Assembly: GCA_964036195.1 (NCBI GenBank)
Contig: OZ038452.1
Location: forward strand, 7,992,704-8,056,703
From: Sphaerolaimus hirsutus
Lineage: Eukaryota; Nematoda; Chromadorea; Monhysterida; Sphaerolaimidae
Length of the DNA: 64,000 nt
Direction: 5' to 3'
In this document: piece after piece, positions 7,801 to 10,800 of the stretch
Layout of the letters: every line of letters begins with the position of its first letter
Numbering within the stretch: the first letter of the stretch is position 1
Notes under the pieces: generated by a model
Told to the model about the DNA's origin: nothing
Database searches by the model: none
What the model saw: only the letters and a program-made list of their open reading frames with translations
Made by a program: the position numbers and the translations under genes

Positions 7801-10800
7801 TTCCTTGGCTTTTTTAAAGTCCTACCATCTCTCATTTCCTTCAAGTTCTACTACCTTCGCCAATATCATCCAAAAAACCTTACTTCACCAAAACCTACCC
7901 CAGAGTTCGCGTCTACTAGAAGAGGCTTGTCAGCAACTCAAATCGGATGCCTACAGCGCGCCCGCCCGCCGAAAGTTGATCGACGGCGCCAGAGGCATTT
8001 TGCAGGGCACCAGCGCCCTACTTTTGTGTTTCGACGAGTCTGAAGTGCGCAAGATTATTAGGGGGTGCAAAAAAGTGCTCGATTATTTGGCTGTCGCCGA
8101 GGTTATCGATACTATGGATGATTTGGCCGTTTTTGTCAAGGTTGGCTGTGATTTTTTGGGTTATTTTCATTGACACATTCATCAGGTTGTCGCCTCGATT
8201 TGATTCTAAGTGGACATTGACATTTCGGGGTCAAATTTTGCGTCTACAAAATTTAAAAATGCCAAATAAAACTCGCCACAACGAAGAAACACCCACTGCA
8301 GTTGGTGTTTCTCTCGCCGTAAAATCAGTGCATAAAAATCTTCCAAATAAATATGACACATTAATTTTCAACATTACATTTATCACTTACACTCCACATT
8401 AGGTACATGTACACATTCCCCCGCAGGACATATCCCCCTGGCTGTCGCGCGTGGCCAAAGACATTGACCTCCGCGAGAAGGAACTCACCCACGCGGCACA
8501 TAGAGAGATGCTCATACGCTCCATGGATGCTATTAAGAGCCTGTCCGCCATCCTCGTGTGCGCCATGAAGATTTTCATCCAGATTCACTCCCAGGGTAAG
8601 TAATTTTTGCTATTTTGGATGAATTTTTTGGGGTAGCTTTTTGATCCCGTCAACTTGATTTTTTGTGTGTTGCGGATGAAGTTGTATTTACTTGATTGGT
8701 CTGTAGTACTCTGCACAGCGCGGGGGTTTATATAAATACCATATATCCTCGAATGAGACCCCACAGGAGTTATTTTTACGTCTGGAGATTTTGACGGGGA
8801 GTTATTTCGAGGGGAGGAGTGTTTTCGTCCCAACATATTCAGTAAAATGGAACTTAAATTAGTTCTTTTAACCTCTGAGTCAGAAATTAGAAATGGTCCA
8901 TATTTTTGTGGCAAATATGAATAGAGTTCAAAATTGAATTGCCCCTACGGCAGCAATGTGTAAAAAAGTGTCTGGGTACCCTAACTCCGCCGAATGGTGC
9001 AAAGCTCGGATTACAAATAAGTATGAGCAATTAAAAAAATTACATTTCATTTCCCCTTTAAAACCGCAACACTATGATAACATGACACTGTGACACATAC
9101 GATACATCTCTCCCTCCACACTCCAACAACCCCCCCTCTTGGCAGGCGGCCAAGGCGAAACCGAAGCGGCCGAGAATCGCAACTACCTGGCTCAACGGAT
9201 GACGGACGAGATGAACGAGATCATCCGCGTGCTGCAGCTGACCAGCTACGACGAGGACGAGTGGGACGCGGACGCGTTGACGGCCATGCGCAGGGCGCTC
9301 AGCGCCGTCGAGTCGCTCATGCAGGCCGCCTTGGACTGGCTGCAGGACCCCCATGCGCAGAGGGGTGGCGTGGGTGGGTTGGGGGGTATGTGAGACGGAT
9401 TTTTTGGCGCGTGGGAGTATGGGACCTTGTGGCCTGTAAAGGAAAAGTGTCAAATGACAAATAAAATGTTATCCAAATTTGTCAAATGTCTTGCAAAATG
9501 TGAAAAATTCAGTAAGAAATTTGTTTATTGTAATTTTGCGTGACATTTTGACACTTTACATTTTGTAGGGTGCGGGATTGCTCTCAGTCTTGAAATTGGT
9601 AAAAATGTTACACAAGCTAGTTCACAGTACATTTATTTGAAAAGATGGCGGCGAATTATGGTGGGAGGCTAAATAAATATTTTCAAAAATAGGCATAATG
9701 CACTACATGGGGTCACACTCCAAAATTGACCAAAAATCGTCAGATACACCCCTCAAACAAACCATTAAAACCTCAAACTCAGGCGAGAAGTCGATCCGTC
9801 GCATCTGCGAGTACGCGGAGCGTGTAGCCGCCCGCGCCCAACCAGAAGACGCGTCGGCAATTCGACGCGCCGTGGGCGACATCAACTCGCTGACCGACTC
9901 GCTGTGCGAACTGCGCCAGGCGGGCCAGGGCAGCAGCGGCCAGGTGCCAGTCCCAGACCCGGTAAAATGCCATGTAAAATGTCAAATGCCATGCAAAGTG
10001 TCAAAAGTCATGTAAAATGCCCTGCAAAATGGCAAACGTACGTTTGCCATTTTCCAGGGCATTTTACACGAATTTAGACACTTTGCATGGCATTTGACAT
10101 TTTACATGGCATTTTACAGGGTCCGGGACTGCCCCCAGGCTCAGGGATTGGCCAGATCCTGCGCGGATCGATTGAGATCCCTGTTGGGTTCGAAGGACCA
10201 GCCGGGACTCTTGCCCAGGGCGGTGAGAAACGTGGAGCGCGCTGGCGCCGGCGCTGGCGCGCACATGGCGCGCACTGTCCACGCGGCTATTGAGATGGCG
10301 CTCAAGGCGCTACAACAGACTGGCGTAGATGATCGTGGTCAGGGTGAGTCGTTTTTTTCACATTGTCTTTCGAAATCGTGTAGAAATTTTTGTGTCATCT
10401 GACGAGTTATTTTTCAAGTGAAGGTATTCTCACTTCAACCAAATTCACAGGGCGTTTTAATTGCGAGTTTACATTTTACTTATCACTTTCACAAATTCCT
10501 GCCTGACTTGACTTTTTTTACGACAATACCGTATTTCCTCGAAATACCCCCAAGGGGTTTATTTTTTCAGAGTGGAAATTTTGAGGGGGTATTTCGAGGG
10601 GTCCTCTTTGAGGGGGGTTAATTCAAGGGGTATTTCGAGGAAATACGATATATTTAAAGGGTGGAGTAGTTCTGCGTGATTTTAATCCGGTGCTTATTTG
10701 ATTGATTGCTTACTCGATCGGTGCGATATTTGATTTTTATTTTAATGATTTTATTGTGTGCTTTTTGTCAATACAAAGCCCCAGACGATCAGCGGCCGTG

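Follow-up and report, generated by a model that had tools for sequence, protein, structure and literature searches.

A palindromic transposon-like element as a probable introner in the vinculin gene of the nematode Sphaerolaimus hirsutus

Algal introners were reportedly treated in a 2016 Nature paper, and a later introner survey reportedly followed. Gozashti et al. 2022 (PMC9860276) describe introners as repeated introns derived from transposon insertions, many of them with inverted ends or target duplications, and state that among animals and land plants their survey recovered introners in two groups only, both of them animals. In some families of that study one splice site is part of the element and the other is furnished by the duplication. 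Among DNA transposons, the NuwaI group of PHIS (PIF/Harbinger-like) elements has been described from animals only (PMC4482050), and is characterised by CWG duplications and by tips that usually begin with GGG. Here we describe a family of elements in a 64-kb window (the whole stretch of DNA analysed) which is similar to the introners of PMC9860276 in that the putative splice sites are divided between the element and the duplicated target, but which differs from them in its end-to-end palindrome and in its 3-bp, mostly CAG or CTG, duplications. A Chrysochromulina family in the same paper also combines its own 5' site with a co-opted 3' site, but has 4-bp duplications and is without inverted ends. 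Our literature search, which was limited in coverage, returned no report of this palindromic family, and the available portions of PMC10597677 and PMC12235515 added nothing on it.

The element that defines the family is situated in the vinculin gene, where the following features are recognised.

9783-9943, + strand: upstream vinculin exon with the 3' end GGCCAG, identified by translation and by alignment to solved vinculin; putative start placed from a CAG
9941-9943, + strand: left copy of the target duplication CAG
9944-10135, + strand: palindromic element, with the GT tip on the left and the GGGGC-type tip (as CCCC) on the right
10136-10138, + strand: right copy of the target duplication CAG, supplying the acceptor AG
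10139-10343, + strand: downstream vinculin exon; putative end placed from a GTGAGT

The whole intron had been described in an earlier note as one near-perfect palindrome, and our analysis agrees: repeat detection returned an inverted repeat without a spacer, with arms at 9939-10039 and 10040-10140 (91% complementary), the arms of 9944-10135, a 192-bp spacer-free palindrome, are identical at 88 of 96 bases, and the exons join in frame. The centre of the palindrome, GGCAAACGTACGTTTGCC, reads at 10031-10048 just as had been reported. However, the span 9944-10138 that was ascribed to the element consists of the 192-bp palindrome and a trailing CAG, and only 9944-10135 is the mobile unit while 10136-10138 is the target duplication. 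The candidate GT donor is the element's own, as the note had held for both splice sites, but the candidate acceptor AG belongs to the duplicated CAG. Folded as RNA with 15 flanking bases per side, the element reaches -150.2 kcal/mol (z -18.5), and none of 200 shuffles is as good.

On both sides of 9944-10138 the translation reads vinculin and the frames join, and with the assembled query the match to solved vinculin 1st6_A has E 2.3e-131. The vinculin frame runs into a stop within the element if it is retained, and the junction is open for 100 codons if it is removed. Since a second frame is likewise open (99 codons), it is homology that carries the argument here: after tip-to-tip removal, the third aligned stretch (domain 3) is ungapped against 1st6_A at the junction, with gaps farther along. 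In the alignment, the vinculin model (9783-16790) seems to contain fewer central repeats than the solved 1st6 structure. Another inverted-repeat element is found in the vinculin region at 20033-20194, with TAA beside both tips if the right tip is shifted by one base. A literature search on exon and intron positions of the vinculin gene found nothing.

A second copy of the element also occupies a whole candidate intron, in the gene of a kinase that among solved structures matches ULK2 best (E 1.2e-21).

52776-52971, + strand: second whole-intron palindrome with its CAG, 196 bp, phase 2, in the kinase gene

The copies in vinculin and in the kinase lie at unrelated positions and share 88.6% identity over 193 bp, and the insertion site is GGCCAG/GC in both genes (a slash marks a border), with one extra C preceding the CAG in the flank of the kinase copy. 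The latter folds to -160.7 kcal/mol under the same conditions (z -23.0; 0 of 200 shuffles as good). In the self-comparison 52755-52973 aligns to 9923-10140 (87%), a stretch that includes both elements and about 20 bases of the upstream exon; a wider target preference could be behind this alignable exon sequence. The alignment to other kinases does not reach the kinase junction, and the kinase case therefore rests on frame, composition and anatomy. Removal of the element leaves 92 codons open until a stop, and in this frame of the last kinase exon GC amounts to 95% at third codon positions versus 61% at first and 50% at second positions, which is a coding base composition. The alternative frame is open for 100 codons. 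A frame open through the junction is weak evidence here, as a second frame is open at each junction (99 and 100 codons), and the kinase case is the weaker for it. Taken by frame for both genes and by homology for vinculin, the element tips are candidate intron ends in two genes, and these are the only whole-intron cases in the window. The proposal of the earlier note that insertion at CCAG/G made an intron at once is still the best reading and is strengthened by the second gene, apart from an acceptor provided by the element's own end.

Direct repeats that are related to the element fill the first kinase intron (50948-51419), which has CCAG on both flanks; the repeats span from 24 bases past the donor to 19 before the acceptor. 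The intron is possibly an older, rearranged introner; having no matching right tip, it was dropped as a counted element.

Both copies might instead be recent insertions that are not spliced and that represent disrupted or polymorphic alleles. The donors GTGCCA (vinculin) and GTGTCA (kinase) are indeed weak compared with the 5' splice consensus GTRAGT; however, the two in-frame cases are independent, occupy sites of one kind and both have the GT tip on the sense strand, and we regard this explanation as highly improbable.

Against tip-to-tip splicing, good-looking acceptors TTTTACAG precede the tip acceptor at 10119 in vinculin and at 52939 and 52951 in the kinase gene. Among the listed pairs of sites up to about 40 bases from each tip, any use of an inner acceptor breaks the frame or leads into a stop, and with the tip acceptor the frame survives for 0, 6, 18 or 30 extra bases in vinculin and for 0 or 18 in the kinase. 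Thus there is good support for the tip acceptor, and less for the donor. Several of the nearby acceptors at putative exon starts are C-rich too. In both genes the frame is also preserved when an inner donor at +18 is paired with the tip acceptor, and an introner spliced from this position (CCG/GTAAAA at 9962; CCT/GTGAAA at 52794) would leave 18 nt, or 6 residues, in the mRNA. The vinculin insertion site presumably lies between helices, where added residues might be tolerated. One family of Gozashti et al. adds 12 bp to the transcript (PMC9860276). Nevertheless, the ungapped alignment to solved vinculin is obtained by tip-to-tip removal, and use of the inner donor appears quite unlikely to us.

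Introner or not, related copies are present elsewhere in the window, and four of them have exact duplications at their flanks.

43630-43940, - strand: longer relative, not within a recognised exon, duplication CAT
44720-44953, + strand: element that shares the tips but has another interior, not within a recognised exon, duplication CTG
48369-48532, - strand: relative outside recognised exons, duplication CTG
53843-53980, - strand: relative outside recognised exons, duplication CAG

The earlier note had spoken of family copies between genes. These four were recovered by searching the 64-kb window for tips with an 11-base motif drawn from the copies, allowing one mismatch. This search gave 8 pairs, or 7 distinct elements after removal of one that reuses the 9944 tip, compared with no chance pair in 16 and one in 4 of 20 resamples, although the element number is not an independent test because the motif was built from those very copies. 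A looser search with two mismatches was dropped, as it produced 16-38 chance pairs in each of 10 resamples. An exact 3-bp duplication is found at the tip-defined offset in five of the seven elements (CAG at 9944, CAT at 43630, CTG at 44720, CTG at 48369 and CAG at 53843), with a chance of 0.019 for each element, and at all other offset pairs (81 in all) at most two elements have identical flanking 3-mers. This is a strong test but not a blind one, because the tip length was picked after the flanks had been inspected. Counting the kinase copy despite its extra C, five of six duplications are CAG or CTG and the other one is CAT; in the remaining element, 34527-34801, the tips match and both read GT, and there is no duplication. 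The elements at 7435, 14360, 22142 and 54864 are outside the one-mismatch pairs and were left out of the duplication count; the flanks of the degraded relatives at 7435 and 54864 do not match. When the flanks of the other five tip-defined elements are joined, open stretches extend to no more than 73 of about 100 codons on either strand, and hence show no sign of interrupted exons.

Next to their GT tips, 44720-44953 and 53843-53980 have AAGTGTTCTG in common in the flanking sequence, by chance, through a wider target or from a common source. Other repeats in the window include an inverted pair at 32432-33242 and 57059-57850 (811 bp, 94% identical, about 24 kb apart), in which GGGACC-type repeats are abundant. 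A further element at 39894-40463 has 186-bp inverted ends (95%) and the tips CAGGGGTGGGCA, and we take it to resemble a hAT-type element.

The two tips are not equivalent. Six of the seven elements have GGG at one end and GTG at the other, so that base 2 is G at one tip and T at the other, while the element at 34527 has GTG, and therefore T, at both. When three palindromes (vinculin, kinase and 48369), with six arms in all, are compared over ungapped columns, only base 2 is invariant within each end and different between ends; column 4 likewise separates the ends (C or T versus G). Differences between elements are mirrored in both arms at 5 of 17, 4 of 15 and 5 of 14 variable columns, which suggests that arms may have been homogenised or that the masters were symmetric. 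It is possible that arm pairing is kept by selection.

Some relatives are located near donors inside likely ordinary introns: the start of 7435-7576 is roughly the 19th base past the donor GT at 7417, and a CAG/GTGGGT donor is found no more than about 80 bases from 14360-14498. Such positions speak for a rival history in which a MITE entered an old intron whose remainder was lost afterwards, with tips and splice sites coinciding secondarily. However, this history requires loss of the flanking intron sequence on both sides in two genes, with CAG left exactly at both borders each time, and we judge it unlikely.

As to the origin of the family, the CAG and CTG duplications are shared with the NuwaI group of PMC4482050. 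The tips agree with it in part, as GGG stands at one tip only in six of the seven elements and at neither in 34527, and the 96-bp inverted arms (12-61 bp in NuwaI) differ. Assignment to the NuwaI group of PHIS is a tentative lead, because no transposase was found, the Pfam scan of 10 open frames from the window having matched in two only, both to kinase families. A literature search for a Harbinger target motif found nothing. Duplications of 3 bp are known from CACTA elements as well; these have CAC tips, which are absent here, and were rejected. Pattern scans had no match in contig collections of mainly viruses, bacteria and archaea and hence say little; Rfam gave no match at gathering score, and ARAGORN no tRNA.

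We consider it probable, with fairly high confidence, that the vinculin element is an introner, i.e. a short non-autonomous DNA transposon (MITE) made of one long palindrome and inserted at an exonic CAG. In the mechanism that we propose, a transposase encoded elsewhere would insert the palindrome at the CAG of a coding exon and duplicate this CAG, giving CAG/GTGCC...CCCC/CAG/G. The left CAG would become the exon end and the GT tip the 5' splice site, whereas the CCCC tip and the right CAG would together form the 3' splice site (CCCCCAG/G), so that the donor GT would come from the element and the acceptor AG from the duplicated target. Excision from GT through the second CAG would restore the mRNA as it was before the insertion, and the hairpin may draw both intron ends together. 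The introns would then be recent gains. A more general version, in which a CWG-duplicating transposase gives an animal family a CAG acceptor with every sense insertion, the single T of one tip gives the donor and the hairpin unites the two, is plausible, yet we put it at slightly under an even chance.

The family is probably a real introner family and a new one, introners themselves being already known. The origin of new introns is an old question, and a family that combines a fixed, short target with a donor asymmetry of one base and with copies both inside and outside exons would make the path from insertion to intron testable in one animal. Such a family would also link introners to a defined group of transposons.
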